IMG/VR virus record: IMGVR_UViG_3300019360_000005
Location: 1 to 43,895 of that record
Reading direction: 5' to 3' (one strand)
Length of the DNA: 43,895 bases
Source: a virus
The notes beneath the pieces were generated by a model that did no database searches, had not been told where the DNA came from, and was given only the letters and a program-made list of their open reading frames with translations. Positions 6,676-43,895 of the stretch are shown one piece after another. Within the stretch, counting starts at the first letter, position 1. The number at the start of each line of letters is the position of its first letter. The position numbers and the translations under genes were made by a program.

Positions 6676-7152
6676 ATGAGGAAGAGCACAAGAAGCTTAT
6701 GTAATAAGTGTTCAGTAGGATTTGAAGTAAACAAGATGTTCTATTACACGGTGAGGGGGTTCTGTTCTCCCTTATGCGCAGCATCAGAGTTTAAGGAGAG
6801 GCCTAAAGAAGAGCCTGTAGTAACGAGAAGGAAGAATAAGTGGGTTAAAGGCCCACCAAAGAAGAGAGATAAGAAGAAAAGACCAGATAGAGATTTGTAT
6901 GACACTCAGAAATGGAGAGAACTTAGATATCAGGTATTCCTAAGATATGGTAGAGAATGTATGCTATGCGGTACGACTAAAGGGGATATGCACGTAGACC
7001 ATATTAAACCCAAGTCTAGGTACCCTAATCTATCTCTTGCCTTTAGTAACCTACAAGTACTCTGTAGAGAGTGTAATCTAGGTAAGTCTAATCTAAATGA
7101 CACAGACTTTAGACCAGTTAAAGAAAGTATTGACAAGATAGATAAGATATGA
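6676..7152 (+). CDS. HNH endonuclease
   Basis: A 158-residue protein. The N terminus has a zinc-binding-like CNKC...FCSPLC set (Cys9, 12, 30, 34), followed by a basic linker rich in Lys/Arg/Pro. The HNH domain follows at about residues 90-140: CMLC, VDHIKP, then NLQVLCRECN, so the DH and N residues and two CxxC zinc pairs are all present. Free-standing phage HNH proteins are usually homing endonucleases or terminase-associated nickases. The structured RNA directly upstream favours the homing type. It is far too short for IscB or Cas9-like proteins and has no RuvC motif. Confidence 0.85.
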   Translation: MRKSTRSLCNKCSVGFEVNKMFYYTVRGFCSPLCAASEFKERPKEEPVVTRRKNKWVKGPPKKRDKKKRPDRDLYDTQKWRELRYQVFLRYGRECMLCGTTKGDMHVDHIKPKSRYPNLSLAFSNLQVLCRECNLGKSNLNDTDFRPVKESIDKIDKI

Positions 7153-9302: not shown

Positions 9303-10484
9303 ATGCAAAGATTAATTACTGATACAAAAGTACCAGTTAAAATATGGGCCTCTGATCTGGAGAAGGGGGCAGAGAAACAACTTAGAAATTTAGCTGACTT
9401 ACCTTTTATCCACAAACACGTGGCAGTTATGCCAGACGCACATGCTGGTAAAGGGTCTACGATAGGTACTGTGATTGCCACAAAAGGGGCAATCATACCA
9501 TCTGCAGTTGGAGTAGATATTGGGTGTGGTATGTGCGCAGTTAAGCTCCCATTTACAGTCGATAAGTTTGGGGACACACTTGCAACATTAAGGCATTCAA
9601 TAGAGAGATCAATTCCAACAGGTTTTAATGCCCACAAAGAATCAACCTCTAGAATTAACGAATCACTTTCTAAGATTCCTGGTGGACTCACCACTATGAA
9701 GGGGATTAATTTAGATAAGGTTGAGAAACAACTAGGCACACTTGGTGGGGGGAATCATTTTATAGAGATCTGCCAAGATCAGAATAAAACAGCTTGGGTA
9801 TTACTACATTCGGGGTCAAGGAATCTAGGCAAACAATTAGCAGAAGTGCATATTGATAAGGCTAAGGGCTTAATGAAAAAGTATTTCATAGATATACCCG
9901 ACCCAGATTTAGCGTACTTTGCTCAAGATACGGTAGAATTTAAAGACTATATAAATGATCTTCATTGGGCACAAGCGTATGCAAAGGCTAACCGAAATGA
10001 GATGATGCTTAGAATTTTAAAAGATATTTCATTCCATGTCTATGGAGAGGAAAAAGACCCCAGTGAGATAACTACTCTGCGAGTAGACTGCCACCATAAC
10101 TATTGTACAATGGAAAATCATTTTGGATCTAACGTCTGGGTAACTAGAAAGGGTGCTGTATCTGCAAGAGAAGGAGAACTAGGGATTATACCTGGGTCTA
10201 TGGGAGCTAAGTCTTATATCGTTAAAGGAAAAGGCAATGATCAGTCTTTTAACTCATGCTCTCACGGTGCTGGGAGAAGGATGAGTAGAACTAAAGCCCG
10301 ATCAACCTTTACAGTACAAGATTTAGAGAATCAGACAAAAGGAATAGAGTGCTCAAAGTCTGTTAAGATTCTAGACGAGATTCCAGCCGCCTATAAGGAT
10401 ATAGATCAAGTCATGGCAAATCAAGCGGATTTAGTTGAGTCTGTTTTTGAGCTTAAACAGATACTCTGTATAAAGGGGGGATAA
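9303..10484 (+). CDS. rtcB: RNA-splicing ligase RtcB
   Basis: A 393-residue full-length RtcB (the bacterial enzyme is about 400). RtcB joins RNA ends bearing 2',3'-cyclic phosphate or 3'-phosphate to 5'-OH using GTP and manganese. Visible signatures are VMPDAHAGKGSTIGTV, GVDIGCGM (Asp72, Cys75 metal ligands), LGGGNHFIE (His152), LLHSGSRNLG (His169), DCHHNY, and HGAGRRMSR with the guanylylated His321. The core looks intact. In a phage the natural role would be resealing tRNAs cut by host anticodon nucleases, analogous to T4 Pnkp/Rnl1; this is inference. The CYTH gene follows immediately. Confidence 0.95.
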   Translation: MQRLITDTKVPVKIWASDLEKGAEKQLRNLADLPFIHKHVAVMPDAHAGKGSTIGTVIATKGAIIPSAVGVDIGCGMCAVKLPFTVDKFGDTLATLRHSIERSIPTGFNAHKESTSRINESLSKIPGGLTTMKGINLDKVEKQLGTLGGGNHFIEICQDQNKTAWVLLHSGSRNLGKQLAEVHIDKAKGLMKKYFIDIPDPDLAYFAQDTVEFKDYINDLHWAQAYAKANRNEMMLRILKDISFHVYGEEKDPSEITTLRVDCHHNYCTMENHFGSNVWVTRKGAVSAREGELGIIPGSMGAKSYIVKGKGNDQSFNSCSHGAGRRMSRTKARSTFTVQDLENQTKGIECSKSVKILDEIPAAYKDIDQVMANQADLVESVFELKQILCIKGG

Positions 10485-20287: not shown

Positions 20288-21361
20288 CTATTCTTTCTTT
20301 TTGTTTGCTGCGCTTAAAATTGCCGCTAATTCTAGCTCTGGGGTTATTTTAGATATTGCGTTTGAAGACTTCTGCGCTACTTGGCCTAATAAAGAAGCTC
20401 CTAAAGATCCTAATGGAAGGGCTTTTACTGGGGTAGACAAGGCGCCCATTACAGAAGTGGGAAGAGATACTGGAGACTCAAGGCCTGCTTGGCCTTTCTT
20501 AAGAGCCGCATAGATAGGATCTATCTTAGATATCTCTGGACTAGCTTGCTTAAGTTGTTCACTTACTTGCTGCTGCTCTGCTTTAGCGAGCTTACCTTCT
20601 AAGCTCTTTAAGGGATTGCCTTGAGCGTTATAACCTCTTTGTCCTGCTGTACTACGTCTCCTTAATGCCTGAGAAGCAGTCTCTTGTCCTCTAGAAGAGA
20701 TATCCTTTAAGTATCTACTAATCTCTCTCATATCTGGTTTATCAGATGCTGAGGGTTTAGCTCCTGGAACTTGTCCAGTCTTACCTAAAGGAGATTCTGC
20801 TATTCTTTCTGCCATAACTGCATTATCAATGGGGGCTCCTGGTACTTTAGAAGCCGCTTCTTCTAATTGAGCGCCTCTTTGCGCTAGCTTATTCTCTACT
20901 TGGTTCTTCATCATACTGGTAGTACCTACTATACCCTCATCAGCTAAGATATTTCCTGCTTCAGGAGTAAACTTCTTACGTCCAGTAGCTATTTGCATAG
21001 CTACATCAGCTATCTTCTTACCTATGCCAGATATACCGTGGCCTGTAGCTGATATAGCAGCGGGTACTGCTGAACCAGAGAAGAATCCTCCTGCTGTTCT
21101 TATTGCCGCTGGGGCAGCTTTAAAATAAGCAGGTAGCCCCCCAATACCACCAACCTGTACTTTATCCGCCATATCATATTTATTGGCTAAGGCAGTTATT
21201 CTTTCTGCTTGTTCGGGAGAGTTTCCTACATAAGTCAATAGATTCTTTTGATCTATCTTAGGATCATTAACATCTATTGTAGGCATCGGAGAGGGCTGTT
21301 CTAAAGGTCTAAAACCTCTAGGGGCAGAATTGGGATTATTATCTACTGGTCTAAATGGCAT
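20288..21361 (-). CDS. Internal virion / ejection protein candidate
   Basis: A 357-residue protein, Ala/Gly/Pro-rich, with weakly hydrophobic central stretches (GGLPAYFKAAPAAIRTAGG, SAVPAAISATGHGISGIGKK) and a helical Gln/Lys-rich C-terminal half. It is the third of three consecutive large low-complexity proteins at the end of the late block, where podoviruses encode proteins ejected into the host. No homology is recognised. The TAG stop is backed by TGA seven codons later. Confidence 0.55.
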   Translation of the reverse strand: MPFRPVDNNPNSAPRGFRPLEQPSPMPTIDVNDPKIDQKNLLTYVGNSPEQAERITALANKYDMADKVQVGGIGGLPAYFKAAPAAIRTAGGFFSGSAVPAAISATGHGISGIGKKIADVAMQIATGRKKFTPEAGNILADEGIVGTTSMMKNQVENKLAQRGAQLEEAASKVPGAPIDNAVMAERIAESPLGKTGQVPGAKPSASDKPDMREISRYLKDISSRGQETASQALRRRSTAGQRGYNAQGNPLKSLEGKLAKAEQQQVSEQLKQASPEISKIDPIYAALKKGQAGLESPVSLPTSVMGALSTPVKALPLGSLGASLLGQVAQKSSNAISKITPELELAAILSAANKKKE

Positions 21362-22464
21362 TATTGTACCTGATCATATAGATTAGAATCAAACTCATTT
21401 TTCATTATAGCGCCCAGCCTGCCCGTTCTTTTCTCTTTAACCATTATCTCCCCCGGCTGTAACTTAGGAGCAGGGGATTCCTGAGATTGTGTCTGGGGAA
21501 CTGGGGGGGATTGAGAAGGTTGGGGAATTTGTGGTTTAGGGGCTTGATTCTGCATAGGCGATTGCTGGGGAGCTTGCGCTGGCGGAGAGTTACCAGTTAA
21601 ACCACCAAAGAAACCGGATAGGGCAGAAGGAACTTGTGCTATTTTATCATGTATAGCTTGGCCTACATTGGCAACAGAAGGTCTTGGTACATCCTCATCC
21701 CCCTGTATCCAGTTATTCCTATTCTTTTTATAATCTGCTATTTTTTCTGCATTCGGGTCTACAAAACCCGACATATGCTGCTTAAGCAGACCGCTTGTAT
21801 TTAAAGTGGGGGCTATCGTAGGGCCTTGGGCTTGTATTCTTTCCATGCCCTTTTGTACCATGTTTTGAGATACATCAACGTCTTGTCCAATAACTTGCGC
21901 TAAGGCTTGTCTTTGGGATGGCGTAAGAGTAGGCTTAACATCTCCACTTAAGGTATTAACCCATTCTTGTAACTTCCCAGGTCCCCCATGGGTACCTTCG
22001 AATACTTTAATAAGACCTTGCGGTACTTGTCCGCCGTTATGTACTACAGCCGCCTTAAACGCAGATGCGACTTGGTCTGCGGTAGCAGTACCATTCTTAA
22101 GATTTTCTAATGCCTCAAGACCTTTACTAGCCTTATCTACATAAGGCTGTACAATTTGTTTATATAGCCTTGCTAAGGAGTCGGTCTCGTGTCTCTGCTG
22201 GGAATTATTTTTATTTGCTTGTCTAGCAGCGGGATCAGAGCCCAATGTAATTCCCTTATCCCCCACATTAATAGAAGCCGCATCATTGATTAAATCAGGA
22301 TTCTCGTTCTTAATTTGCTTAATCATACCAAGATAATTTGCGAGTTTATCTTTATCTTCTTCTACTTTCAGTCTAGAATCAATAGCAGATTTAGCTCCAG
22401 TAGCCCCCATCTTTTCGCCCCTACCTAAGCCACTTAAAAAATAATCTCCAAATGTTTTACCCAT
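21361..22464 (-). CDS. Internal virion / ejection protein candidate
   Basis: A 367-residue protein. The N-terminal 240 residues are helical and charged; about residues 285-340 form a Pro/Gln-rich disordered linker (QAPQQSPMQNQAPKPQIPQP region) and the last 35 are charged. It abuts both flanking genes. The pattern fits ejected internal proteins, but the call rests on position and composition. Confidence 0.55.
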   Translation of the reverse strand: MGKTFGDYFLSGLGRGEKMGATGAKSAIDSRLKVEEDKDKLANYLGMIKQIKNENPDLINDAASINVGDKGITLGSDPAARQANKNNSQQRHETDSLARLYKQIVQPYVDKASKGLEALENLKNGTATADQVASAFKAAVVHNGGQVPQGLIKVFEGTHGGPGKLQEWVNTLSGDVKPTLTPSQRQALAQVIGQDVDVSQNMVQKGMERIQAQGPTIAPTLNTSGLLKQHMSGFVDPNAEKIADYKKNRNNWIQGDEDVPRPSVANVGQAIHDKIAQVPSALSGFFGGLTGNSPPAQAPQQSPMQNQAPKPQIPQPSQSPPVPQTQSQESPAPKLQPGEIMVKEKRTGRLGAIMKNEFDSNLYDQVQ

Positions 22465-23594
22465 TATGGTTTCTTCTTTCCAGTTGAAGCGATTTTATCA
22501 CCTTTATCATTAACATCAAACATAGAATTTCCTAAGCCCTTACCAACAGCAGTGCCTAATCCACCAGTAAATGCTCCAGTGAGCCCCCCAGCTATACCCC
22601 CAAGTACTCCCCCAAGCCCAGGACCGCGAGTATCTTCCTGTTGCTGAAACTGCTTATTAACCTGATCTTGCTCCATTTGTTGTCTGCGTTGCTCTAAATC
22701 TACAGCGCCGGTTCTTTCAGCCATAGTCTCTTTACGTGAGCTAAGAGCATTGTCATATTGATTCTGGAGAGCATTCTGACCTTGTTGTCCTAATTGAGAC
22801 ATGAAATTACGCGTCTGATTAAGTCTTTCCATCGTATTCTGCATTCTCTTATTAGCTATATCAGTCTGTGCTTTAGCTAACATCTCATTCTTATTGCCTT
22901 GAAGTCCTGAGTACTCTCTACCTGCTACAGAGCTTCCTCCAGAAGCTAATCCTCTAGATGCTAAGCTCTCTGCTAGTCCAGACTCCTGCTGTCCAAACTG
23001 TCTAGCTATATCTCCAGACGCTTGTCCATACGCTTCATAATCTTCAGGCTGTAGTTTATAGCCCTGTGATGCTAATCTTTGCTCTTCTGTATTAGTTCTA
23101 TCTAATGCTCCGCCCTTACCGAAGTATTGGCCTAGGATTGGATTATTCTGTACTTTGTCTGTGGCAAATTGTAGGGCTGTATTAGGGTCTAAAGCAAGCT
23201 GACTTGCAAAGTCAGAACCTTGAACATTACCCTTAGTTCTAGCAGCATCCATACCTTGCTCTAGGCCAGAGAGTTCTGTCCAATCTACCCATTTCTGTCC
23301 AGTCATCTTCTCATATTGTTCAGGTTTAAGGCCGGGATATTCTTTCATAGCCTGGGCTTGCTTTTGAGATTGAGCTTGCTTATCTCCATAGGTCTTCTGT
23401 AGTCCAGCTAGTTCTGCACTAGGCATTGACTGTGCTTGAGATAGAGCATCTTGAAGATTAACTCCGCCCGAAGCATACTTTGACATAATATCTCTTAAAG
23501 CGGGATTAGATTGTCCTGCTAAAGAGCCAGAGATCATGTCTTGTTCTGGAGTGCGTCTAATTACATTATCCGCTTTTCTTCCATCATCACCCAT
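22464..23594 (-). CDS. Internal virion / ejection protein candidate
   Basis: A 376-residue protein rich in Gln, Ala and Ser with long helices (SEGLAESLASRG-type and ERLNQTRNFMSQLGQQGQN). Residues near the C terminus form a glycine-rich hydrophobic stretch (GLGGVLGGIAGGLTGAFTGG) that could insert in a membrane, followed by a Lys-rich tail. This glycine-rich hydrophobic segment suits a channel-forming ejection protein. Inference only. Confidence 0.6.
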   Translation of the reverse strand: MGDDGRKADNVIRRTPEQDMISGSLAGQSNPALRDIMSKYASGGVNLQDALSQAQSMPSAELAGLQKTYGDKQAQSQKQAQAMKEYPGLKPEQYEKMTGQKWVDWTELSGLEQGMDAARTKGNVQGSDFASQLALDPNTALQFATDKVQNNPILGQYFGKGGALDRTNTEEQRLASQGYKLQPEDYEAYGQASGDIARQFGQQESGLAESLASRGLASGGSSVAGREYSGLQGNKNEMLAKAQTDIANKRMQNTMERLNQTRNFMSQLGQQGQNALQNQYDNALSSRKETMAERTGAVDLEQRRQQMEQDQVNKQFQQQEDTRGPGLGGVLGGIAGGLTGAFTGGLGTAVGKGLGNSMFDVNDKGDKIASTGKKKP

Positions 23595-29638: not shown

Positions 29639-30328
29639 CTAGCCCAACTCCGGGTTAAAAGGTCTTATGAAAGTAGGATTCTTAGATCTATTGGCGATAG
29701 TATCTTTAAAAAGGCCGTATAGGTCTCCTACTTGAGCTTTAGGTATTGCAGTTAAATCTACGTTGTTAACAAGAGACTCTTTCATCTTAGCTTTAAAGAC
29801 AGCATAAGCTTCAATAAGCTGTTTAAAAATGGGAGAGATCTGATTAGTAAGAGTATCTGCAGCATCTACCATTACATCAGGAAATTGTAGATACTCTAAC
29901 TTAAGCCCGCTAGTTTCAGCGAAGTTTGGGGTGGGAAGTAGTACAAGATTGTTACCTCTGAAAGAATAACTAGGGAAGTAAGCAGTAGAACTGGTCCCTC
30001 CTTGGGTAGTATAACTCTCTGTAAGATTATTTCTATAATCTAGAATTTCATACCCATTTGGAACCTTTTTCCAAATAGCTTTTACAACAAAAGCATCAGA
30101 GGGTAAGGCTACTGTTTGAGTATTTAATGCTATATCTAGGTCAGTAGTAGTAGTAAAAAGACCTTCGTCATTCTTAGTGACTTCTGCGAAATAAATCCTA
30201 CAGCCTTCGTTAAGATACTCTGTTAATTCAGCATCACTCCAAAATGAATTAGAGGGATTAGGCTGATTCAGCATATTCCTAACGTTAGTTATAAGTTTTC
30301 CCAAAGAGGGGCTAGTTAGAGTTGCCAT
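29639..30328 (-). CDS. Head-to-tail adaptor / tail-tube A-like protein
   Basis: A 229-residue protein. LGKLITNVRNMLNQPNPSNS then FWSDAELTEYLNEGCRIYF is the typical start of phage adaptor proteins ('W.D.EL..YLNEA...'). The middle carries LPSDAFVVKAIWKKVPNGYE and YLQFPDVMVDAADTL; the end is helical. It should bind beneath the portal. The TAG stop is followed by TAA five codons later. Confidence 0.75.
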   Translation of the reverse strand: MATLTSPSLGKLITNVRNMLNQPNPSNSFWSDAELTEYLNEGCRIYFAEVTKNDEGLFTTTTDLDIALNTQTVALPSDAFVVKAIWKKVPNGYEILDYRNNLTESYTTQGGTSSTAYFPSYSFRGNNLVLLPTPNFAETSGLKLEYLQFPDVMVDAADTLTNQISPIFKQLIEAYAVFKAKMKESLVNNVDLTAIPKAQVGDLYGLFKDTIANRSKNPTFIRPFNPELG

Positions 30329-30333
30329 TAATC

Positions 30334-30795
30334 CTACTTAGACAGATCTACTTCTTTCATAAGATCTTTAATCTCATCAACACTTGCTTGCTGAGAGTCT
30401 TTATTTGCTCGCTGATACTTGGCTAAAAGACGCATAGCCTCTTTCTCACCTTCAGTAGCATAGACTGCCGGGTCAACTTTAATATTGGCCCTTTCAAGAT
30501 CTTGTCTCAAAGAGACTTGGTTATTAAAAATAACACGTCTTAATTTCTTAACAAAATTATCAATGCCTTTTACTTCAGCAGTCTTGATAATGTCTTTACC
30601 TGCTTGCGAAGTTCTAAAATCAAGATCTTCTAGTTCTTCTGGTAAAGAGACTAAACCTTCTTCTGATAACTCGTCAGTCATAAACTGCGCGATATTTGGT
30701 TCAAAGTGTTTAATCTGTTTCGATTTAAAGGTAAACCAATTACCTCTTACTTTTACCGAAACTTCTTCCGTTCTTGCATTCATTACTAAGGCCAT
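30334..30795 (-). CDS. Hypothetical structural-block protein
   Basis: A 153-residue protein: beta-like N terminus (EEVSVKVRGNWFTFKSKQIK) and a charged helical remainder (LMKEVDLSK end). It is co-oriented with head and tail genes. The stop is TAG, then one codon, then TAA. No fold recognised; a head-completion or assembly role is possible. Confidence 0.55.
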   Translation of the reverse strand: MALVMNARTEEVSVKVRGNWFTFKSKQIKHFEPNIAQFMTDELSEEGLVSLPEELEDLDFRTSQAGKDIIKTAEVKGIDNFVKKLRRVIFNNQVSLRQDLERANIKVDPAVYATEGEKEAMRLLAKYQRANKDSQQASVDEIKDLMKEVDLSK

Positions 30796-33688: not shown

Positions 33689-34510
33689 CTACCTTAAGCC
33701 GGGCGGTAGGATGAGCTTAGATTTTGGGTGCTCTTGGTCGAAGGTAGGCGTCATCTTTGCCTTATAGCGAGATAGCAAGTCGTTATAACGTGCTTGCAAG
33801 GCCGCTACTTGACCTCTAACCATTTGATCATAAGCGTTCACAGCTTTATTTGCATAGTCGATAGCATAATTGTTCATCTCAAGTAGATCTAGTTCTTTTC
33901 TATGTTTGCAGACCATGCTGTAATCAGTAAAAAATTGGATACCGAGCTTATTAAGCTTAAGACAGAAGCCTAAGTCTTCGCCTTCAGTTAAAACTCTTGT
34001 TTCAGGATTAAATTTAAATTCAAAGTAGGGCTTTTGTAGGAGAGAAAATATCTCTCTTTTAATAAACATACAGCCAGTAGCTAACCCATCTACAAATTCA
34101 ATGCCTTCATAAGGTATCTTAGCAGGCGCTATACCTACGCCATTAGTACCTTTATAAGCGGTAAATACAATCTGCCTATGTTCTTCATTTAACTGCCCCA
34201 TAAATACAGGATATGGTGCTCCTGCTACCTTCCATTTATCCCAATGCACTGCGATAAGGTCAAGTACATGTCTAGGGGGAGTAATGTCAGAATCTAAGAA
34301 CCAAAGCACATCACAATCTGTTGCTAAAAACTCCTCTACAATACCATTTCTTGCTGCATCATGAAATATTCTTTGAGTAAGCTTTTGTGGATATACAAAT
34401 TCGATTGTATCTCCGTAGTCTTTCTCTAGATCTCTAAGCAAATAAGTTTGAGAATCTACTATAAATCCAGTAGAGGGGATACCAACATACATTTTAATCT
34501 TCTTAGACAT
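33689..34510 (-). CDS. GT-A fold glycosyltransferase-like protein
   Basis: A 273-residue protein. WFLDSDITPP contains the DxD metal/nucleotide-sugar motif (Asp73, Asp75). VDGLATGCMFIKREI and TEGEDLGFCLKLNKLGI are the acceptor and ED-type catalytic segments of GT2-like enzymes. The last 50 residues form a basic helix and tail (AALQARYNDLLSRYKAK). It lies between portal and scaffold genes, overlapping the portal start by 1 nt. Its position suggests it acts on, or is packaged with, head proteins; that is inference. Confidence 0.8.
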   Translation of the reverse strand: MSKKIKMYVGIPSTGFIVDSQTYLLRDLEKDYGDTIEFVYPQKLTQRIFHDAARNGIVEEFLATDCDVLWFLDSDITPPRHVLDLIAVHWDKWKVAGAPYPVFMGQLNEEHRQIVFTAYKGTNGVGIAPAKIPYEGIEFVDGLATGCMFIKREIFSLLQKPYFEFKFNPETRVLTEGEDLGFCLKLNKLGIQFFTDYSMVCKHRKELDLLEMNNYAIDYANKAVNAYDQMVRGQVAALQARYNDLLSRYKAKMTPTFDQEHPKSKLILPPGLR

Positions 34511-37516: not shown

Positions 37517-38971
37517 TTAATCCCCAAAAGGGTCTTTAGGAATGGGGTTACGCTTTTCGAATAATTCGCGTCTTAGGGCACCTTCTATACTAAAGTCCCT
37601 TTCTAACTTATTGCGTATAGTCTCGTTTTTAGGGGTTTCTGGCTGAGACATCACAAGATAGCGTAGGGCATCTGGTAAGTGGTCATCTACCTTCTTAGGT
37701 TCTTCCTTCTCGTTCTTAACCCCCTTCTGATTATCGGGGAGTTCAGCCCATCTGTAGGTTACAAGAGTATCTATGAGATTGGGGCAGGTATCGAATATAT
37801 AGATTCTGGGCTTACCAGTGCGCTCATTGATCTTAAGATAGGTCTTAACTCTATCTATACCAGTCTGAACTGAGTTAGCAGCGGGAATAAGGGGTATCTT
37901 ACGTGGTAGATTCTGCTCATACACATCCCAATCAGACTCTCCCTTTTGGCCTACAGAGCGTTTTGTAGAGGGGTCTAGGTACATACCACTAATCTTCTCT
38001 CGAAAGCTTAACCCAACCAATCCTTGTTGGTTGGTCTTCCTATTACCCTTACAGATCTCCTCAATAAGCCAGCCTGATTCGTAGAACTCTCTATAGATAT
38101 AGATATTGCCATCATAGTCTACAGCTCCCCAGATCATAGCTGCTTGATTAACAAAACCGTGATCAGCGCCTATAATCTTAGTCCACTCTTCGGGTATACG
38201 AAAAGGCTTAATGACATGTACATCACGCCTAAATTCGGTATATATCTGACCAGAGAAGCTATCAAAGCTACCATAGACTTCCCTATCTACTCTCTCTTTA
38301 GACCAGGTATCCATAAGAGATTGCACATACCCTTCGGGTAGGTGCGTATTCTCGGTAGAAGGAGCTAAGATAAGCTTATATTGCTTTTTAGCCTCTAAAG
38401 TCTTAAACATGTCTTGCTTAATAAAGTACTGATATATCCAGTTATGTCCTGCGGGATTGCCTACGATAATACCTTTACGTAATCCGTTTAAGTTACGTAA
38501 TCTACCTTGTAGTAGGAGAAAGGATTCTTCAGAGACTTGGGAAGCCTCATCTATACCAAAGCCAGAAAGGTTAAGAGATCTTAACTTACCTGGTTCGTCT
38601 AAGCCTACGAAGTAGAAAGTGGCTTTCTTACCTGCTGAGGCTCTAATAGTGATCTCAGCATCAGCTATCCTATGCTCTATTATAAGCTCTTTAGGTACAA
38701 TATCCAAGAACTGCTTCATGGTAGTTCTTCGCAGTTCAGGCATGAACTGCCTAGCTATCACATACTCCCCACCATGGAGTACACCTTGCATAAGCATGGT
38801 GATACACAATATAAGGCTTTTTCCTGAGCCTACCTAGACGCCCCCCATATAAGCTACGTATTTCTGACCATCTGGGTCTAATACGGAGTTCATAAAAGCT
38901 TTCTGCTTCGGTAGGGGGGCATGTTTACCATCCTTTCCACGGGGAAAGGATAGATTAAGATCTACTATCAT
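37517..38971 (-). CDS. Terminase large subunit, interrupted by an in-frame TAG
   Basis: Reading from ATG 38971, codons 1-45 (ending KYVAYMGGV) fit the start of a large terminase. Codon 46 is TAG (38836-38834), and the frame then continues VGSGKSLILC, the Walker A motif, to TAA at 37517. Total 484 residues if TAG is read as an amino acid. Later motifs: Walker B SGFGIDEASQV, coupling motif IVGNPAG, and nuclease acidic residues in IIGADHGF and DHLPDALRYLV. Taken alone, the part after TAG has only a TTG start at 38809 and would lose Walker A. Either the amber is suppressed, or this copy is mutated, or the base is wrong. Confidence 0.85.
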
Positions 38972-43559: not shown

Positions 43560-43895
43560 ATGAAACTATTTGAAATTAAATCAGGGATAAGTGGAACAGT
43601 CCTTTTCTCGGTAAAAACCGAGAGTTTTAAAATGGCCTTAGAATTGGCGATTAAGGCCAATGCGGACCTAAACTATGCGGACCTAAGCTCTGCGGACCTA
43701 AGCTATGCGGACCTACGCTATGCGGACCTAAGCTCTGCGGACCTACGCTATGCGGACCTGAGCTCTGCGGACCTACGCTCTGCGAACCTAAGCTATGCGG
43801 ACCTAAGCTCTGCGGACCTACGCTATGCGGACCTAAGCTCTGCGGACCTACGCTATGCGGACCTAAGCTCTGCGGACCTACGCTATGCGGACCTA
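43560..43895 (+). CDS. Pentapeptide-repeat protein, N-terminal part (continues at window start)
   Basis: ATG 43560 has TAGGAG upstream. A 33-residue non-repeat start (MKLFEIKSGISGTVLFSVKT, then LELAIKAN) is followed by pentapeptides ADLXX to the window edge, in frame. The frame is continuous with 30-521 if the last 29 nt are the same bases as 1-29. The N- and C-terminal domains around a variable repeat number match phage pentapeptide proteins. Codons in the repeats (GCG, GAC, CGC) differ from the AGA/GCT-rich rest of the genome. Confidence 0.85.
   Translation, partial: MKLFEIKSGISGTVLFSVKTESFKMALELAIKANADLNYADLSSADLSYADLRYADLSSADLRYADLSSADLRSANLSYADLSSADLRYADLSSADLRYADLSSADLRYADL
43661..43895 (+). 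repeat. Pentapeptide-coding 15/30-nt tandem repeats (right end)
   Basis: Fifteen complete 15-nt units plus a partial one, mostly alternating TAT- and TCT-containing units. The last 29 nt equal positions 1-29. Exact repeats of this kind collapse in short-read assembly, which explains the end of the window. Confidence 0.95.

Follow-up and report, generated by a model that had tools for sequence, protein, structure and literature searches.

An in-frame stop within the P-loop of a phage terminase gene

The window analyzed here is the whole of one viral record, 43,895 nucleotides long (IMG/VR IMGVR_UViG_3300019360_000005), and its minus strand carries a large terminase gene, terL, whose reading frame is interrupted by a single TAG (Table 1). 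From ATG 38971 the frame gives MIVDLNLSFPRGKDGKHAPLPKQKAFMNSVLDPDGQKYVAYMGGV, then TAG (38836–38834), then VGSGKSLILC... through to TAA at 37519–37517, and joining the two halves requires no frameshift. The part 3′ of the TAG matches Pfam Terminase_3 (PF04466, 7.1e-16), Terminase_6N (PF03237, 1.9e-7), and PHROG 2 (terminase large subunit, 4.6e-31), and by these family matches the interrupted gene is a TerL of the Terminase_3/6 type. A first-pass annotation, made from the letters of the window, had placed an in-frame amber codon at this position inside the Walker A region of a terminase, with conserved sequence on both sides and no frameshift. All of this agrees with our reading of the frame and the Pfam and PHROG matches, and the 5′ and 3′ parts are 60% and 77% identical, respectively, to the nearest related TerL.

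Table 1. Features of the terL locus, in window coordinates
Feature	Position	Strand	Basis or comparison
terL, large terminase subunit, with one in-frame TAG	37517..38971	-	76% identical to L015 TerL
5′ part of terL, from ATG through the GTC Val codon, 45 codons with YMGGV last	38837..38971	-	60% identity with L015, 42 residues aligned
Run of six G immediately 5′ of the site	38841..38846	-	one of 14 runs of at least six in the window
Walker A/P-loop region, M-G-G-V-*-V-G-S-G-K-S	38816..38848	-	sequence and alignment
GTC-TAG-GTA, net 6-nt in-frame insertion, edges ambiguous	38831..38839	-	single Val, Ile, or Tyr codon in relatives
In-frame TAG	38834..38836	-	sequence
3′ part of terL, GTA to TAA, rest of ATPase and nuclease domains	37517..38833	-	77% identity with L015, 438 residues aligned

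The gene shows no sign of long-standing decay. Between the window and its nearest relative (L015, contig IMGVR_UViG_3300029179_000230), terL has a dN of 0.19 and a dS of about 2.3 (saturated), and since the window protein is about as similar to each outgroup as the L015 protein is, terL is not decaying. As judged from these comparisons it is under strong purifying selection and is evolving no faster than in L015, so that any break would be recent. Among window genes with homologues in relatives, terL is the sole interrupted one; its break is either recent, unreal, or handled in translation. Restart after the stop was considered and rejected, since the nearest start in the downstream open reading frame (ORF) is TTG 38809 and its use would lose the P-loop.

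Two other features of the contig were recorded. A 15-bp tandem repeat unit, GCTCTGCGGACCTAC, lies with near variants at both contig ends (1–182, 12 copies; 43660–43895, 16 copies), as would be seen had a genome of about 44 kb, circular or circularly permuted, been opened within a single repeat array. Three adjacent late ORFs at 20288–23594 (minus strand) are of similar size (357, 367, and 376 aa) and have no PHROG match.

Comparison with related terminases

A viral scan with a single TerL sequence as query had returned zero matches. Relatives were found by using the major head protein as query, which yielded eight related IMG/VR contigs, four of them with a TerL covering the site, and a profile scan enlarged the set to 15 IMG/VR terminases covering the site (49–76% identical). 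From the cellular genomes scanned, a single distant TerL was recovered (25%), and it lies in a MAG of Planctomycetota. The P-loop of the relatives reads GG-[V/I/Y]-G-S-[G/A]-K-[S/T], with one exception among the 15 (AAGVGSGKT), and similarly compact P-loops occur in more distant phage terminases.

None of the 15 relatives has a stop, and in the alignment every one shows a two-residue gap opposite two residues of the window. GTC-TAG-GTA thus corresponds to one codon in 15/15 relatives, and the window carries a net 6-nt in-frame insertion containing the stop. Within this alignment the insertion is private to the window among the terminases compared. Mutation of a sense codon to TAG is rejected, because no residue of any relative aligns with the TAG. 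The first-pass annotation had proposed a homologue alignment while assuming that the TAG replaced one residue; in the alignment relatives lack a residue there, and the assumption itself was mistaken, since the gene carries two extra codons and the stop sits inside a 6-nt insertion that the annotation had missed.

The arrangement is also absent from the viral collection at large. No other terminase there fits the P-loop pattern Val-TAG-Val or its wider Val-stop-Val form; the two viral contigs that matched the first pattern as V-TAG-V-GxGK at the DNA level (L016 and L017) were set aside as chance matches, their frames being full of stops. No near-identical contig, carrying the six bases or lacking them, turned up among the records open to the scan. 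Conservation of the interruption in related genomes is accordingly nil, across the 15 relatives and the pattern scans alike.

TAG usage and suppression

TAG behaves as an ordinary terminator in this genome. The 56 likely-gene ORFs of the window end in TAA (37), TGA (10), or TAG (9). For the TAG-ended late gene at 33689–34510 the L015 homologue aligns to the last residue, and for those at 29639–30328 and 30334–30795 the homologues stop no more than a few residues away from the TAG of the window; with the ends of homologues coinciding or nearly so, TAG acts as a terminator here. It is neither a sense codon in many genes nor avoided as a terminator, and genome-wide reassignment is rejected on the same grounds. 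No tRNA genes, and hence no suppressor tRNA, were found in the window by ARAGORN or Rfam. The earlier likening of this TAG to the stop-codon recoding of gut phages therefore finds no support: those phages, in which TAG is read as Gln, likewise have in-frame TAG in late genes, whereas here a single TAG lies in a 6-nt insertion, and the window encodes no tRNA and uses TAG as a normal terminator.

Suppression confined to the host, or readthrough, is a separate proposal. UAG would be decoded by the host, and a low dose of TerL with two extra P-loop residues (X and Val) would result. The frame is open on both sides of UAG, and in a suppressor host readthrough would lengthen the TAG-ended late genes by a few residues only, so such a host is conceivable. 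However, the product, GGV-X-V-GSGKS, is two residues longer than any of the 15 relatives, in a loop where no relative has such residues, and the window lacks a suppressor tRNA. When TAG was modeled as Gln, AlphaFold2 gave a mean confidence of 67 for residues 41–50, against 93 and 92 for the neighboring blocks and 85 for the matching block of L015 (the blocks being offset by a few residues), a drop that weakly favors disruption of the predicted loop by the two extra residues. We consider suppression or readthrough quite improbable. Both had been offered as options in the first-pass annotation, which did not weigh the two added residues and did not consider a hop.

A probable error or broken copy

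The account that we judge probable, from sequence comparison, is either a mistake in assembly or consensus or else a nonfunctional variant, the two being taken together here. Either the assembled consensus would be wrong at a site adjoining the six-G run, or the assembly would have captured a variant whose terminase had broken recently; no full-length TerL would then come from this copy, and no recoding would be involved. We infer this status of the insertion, as error or null allele, from several observations. The two codons are missing from all 15 IMG/VR relatives covering the site, and the Val-TAG-Val and Val-stop-Val scans find no other viral terminase of this form. TAG is a normal terminator, no tRNA lies in the window, there is no evident bypass signal, and the flanking Val codons differ (both below). 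Purifying selection on terL means that any break must be recent. Furthermore, the case is one assembled contig, chosen in a large scan because of its stop.

Several points count against error or breakage. The contig is otherwise clean, with no other gene that has homologues broken. Short-read errors do not typically take the form of a 6-nt insertion, which makes this one atypical as such an error, and a null allele of an essential gene would not be expected to prevail in a population of lytic phage. In addition, when random 6-nt insertions were simulated at the site, only about 3% of those that created a stop yielded Val-stop-Val. Assembly or base error, which had been listed in the first-pass annotation, stays among the leading options. 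A small remainder of probability, slightly above that given to suppression, is left for causes not listed here.

Possible translation across the stop

Another reading, unlikely in our estimation, is a natural in-frame stop hop, in which GUC-UAG-GUA is read as one valine and a normal TerL is made in limited dose. Under this still doubtful scheme, peptidyl-tRNA-Val would leave GUC as UAG enters the A site, skip six nucleotides, and re-pair with GUA. The stop might, with equally low probability, serve to keep TerL output low, few TerL copies being needed. The encoded frame has no uninterrupted Walker A loop, as the TAG and one extra Val codon lie within it, and an intact loop from this terL copy would need such a hop. 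Skipping the gap gives YMGGVGSGKS, the exact P-loop of the family. Conservation of both terL halves, in a contig where no other gene with homologues is broken, also fits.

The rarity of Val-stop-Val in the simulation, about 3%, is a further point for the hop and favors it over random insertion some tenfold or more, with a pattern chosen after it had been seen. Short insertions frequently duplicate adjoining sequence. The weight of the tenfold figure is reduced because the feature was picked post hoc and because short insertions often copy their neighbors, and the post hoc recognition of the layout itself counts against the hop.

The codons and their context also tell against it. Take-off and landing codons, GTC and GTA, both encode Val and differ in the third base, and re-pairing would thus require a host tRNA-Val able to decode the two. 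Among the 728 Val codons in the window GTA is the commonest (363) and GTC the rarest (54), which weakly suggests that GTA is the older of the two. RNA folding around the site is unremarkable (z of -0.9 and +0.1) and a KKYK motif like that of gene 60 is absent upstream of the stop, so that neither a stimulatory mRNA structure nor a nascent-peptide signal of the gene 60 type was found; short engineered stop hops may need no such signals. The arrangement is absent from every one of the 15 relatives and from the viral pattern scans.

Known systems resemble the site in part. In synthetic stop hops in E. coli, nine nucleotides with a stop between two codons for one amino acid, a layout shared by terL, yield a single amino acid, and the product is two residues shorter than that of readthrough (PMC5009743); these were engineered with matched codons, whereas the terL codons are synonymous and nonidentical, and a hop there is putative. 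Gene 60 of phage T4 shares with terL a phage setting, a noncoding insert, and a UAG right after the would-be take-off codon, but it differs: its gap spans 50 nt, the frame changes across it, the two codons are both GGA, and stem-loops and a nascent-peptide signal are present. A bypass has also been proposed in another phage terminase gene, where it involves a UUA codon and unusual Streptomyces decoding, with no stop codon.

Two further candidates were dropped. The window encodes an RtcB-type RNA ligase in its early region (9303–10484, plus strand; Pfam 1e-124, PHROG 1075), a gene not found in the eight related contigs, several of them fragmentary. RtcB-mediated excision of the six bases from the mRNA was considered since the phage encodes this ligase, and no evidence for it was seen. 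The 9-mer GTCTAGGTA has five copies in the window against about 0.3 expected under a Markov model, and is not special, given that 596 distinct 9-mers occur at least five times.

A possible homing-related origin

One possibility that we regard as very improbable, more so than any other discussed here, is that the insertion is real and arose when the P-loop codons were cleaved by a homing endonuclease and the break underwent error-prone repair. It would have been kept, on the same remote supposition, as it blocks recutting, and tolerated via hopping or readthrough. The TerL P-loop is a frequent intein site, with active endonucleases, in mycobacteriophages (PMC5050341), and the bypassed insert of T4 gene 60 may protect against a homing-type nuclease (PMC5009743); such P-loop inteins could offer a route by which an insertion there is selected. 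The window itself encodes an HNH endonuclease (6676–7152, plus strand; PHROG 144, 5e-18) that may be a homing endonuclease of the free-standing kind. On the other side, its gene lies about 32 kb from the site, the TerL genes of the 15 relatives show no intein or intron, and a route to TerL expression would still be required.

Implications

If the insertion is an error or marks a dead copy, the case is a warning only: a lone in-frame stop, met in an assembled phage contig, is no evidence of recoding. For such sites, codon-level alignment of relatives tells a replaced residue from added codons. Of the readings that remain, the stop hop, unlikely as it is, is the most interesting, ahead of suppression and of a homing-related insertion. 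Should the insertion be real and TerL be produced, terL would provide an in-frame stop hop of natural origin, a class with no known case as of a 2016 review (PMC5009743), and some apparent readthrough sites would then be hops.
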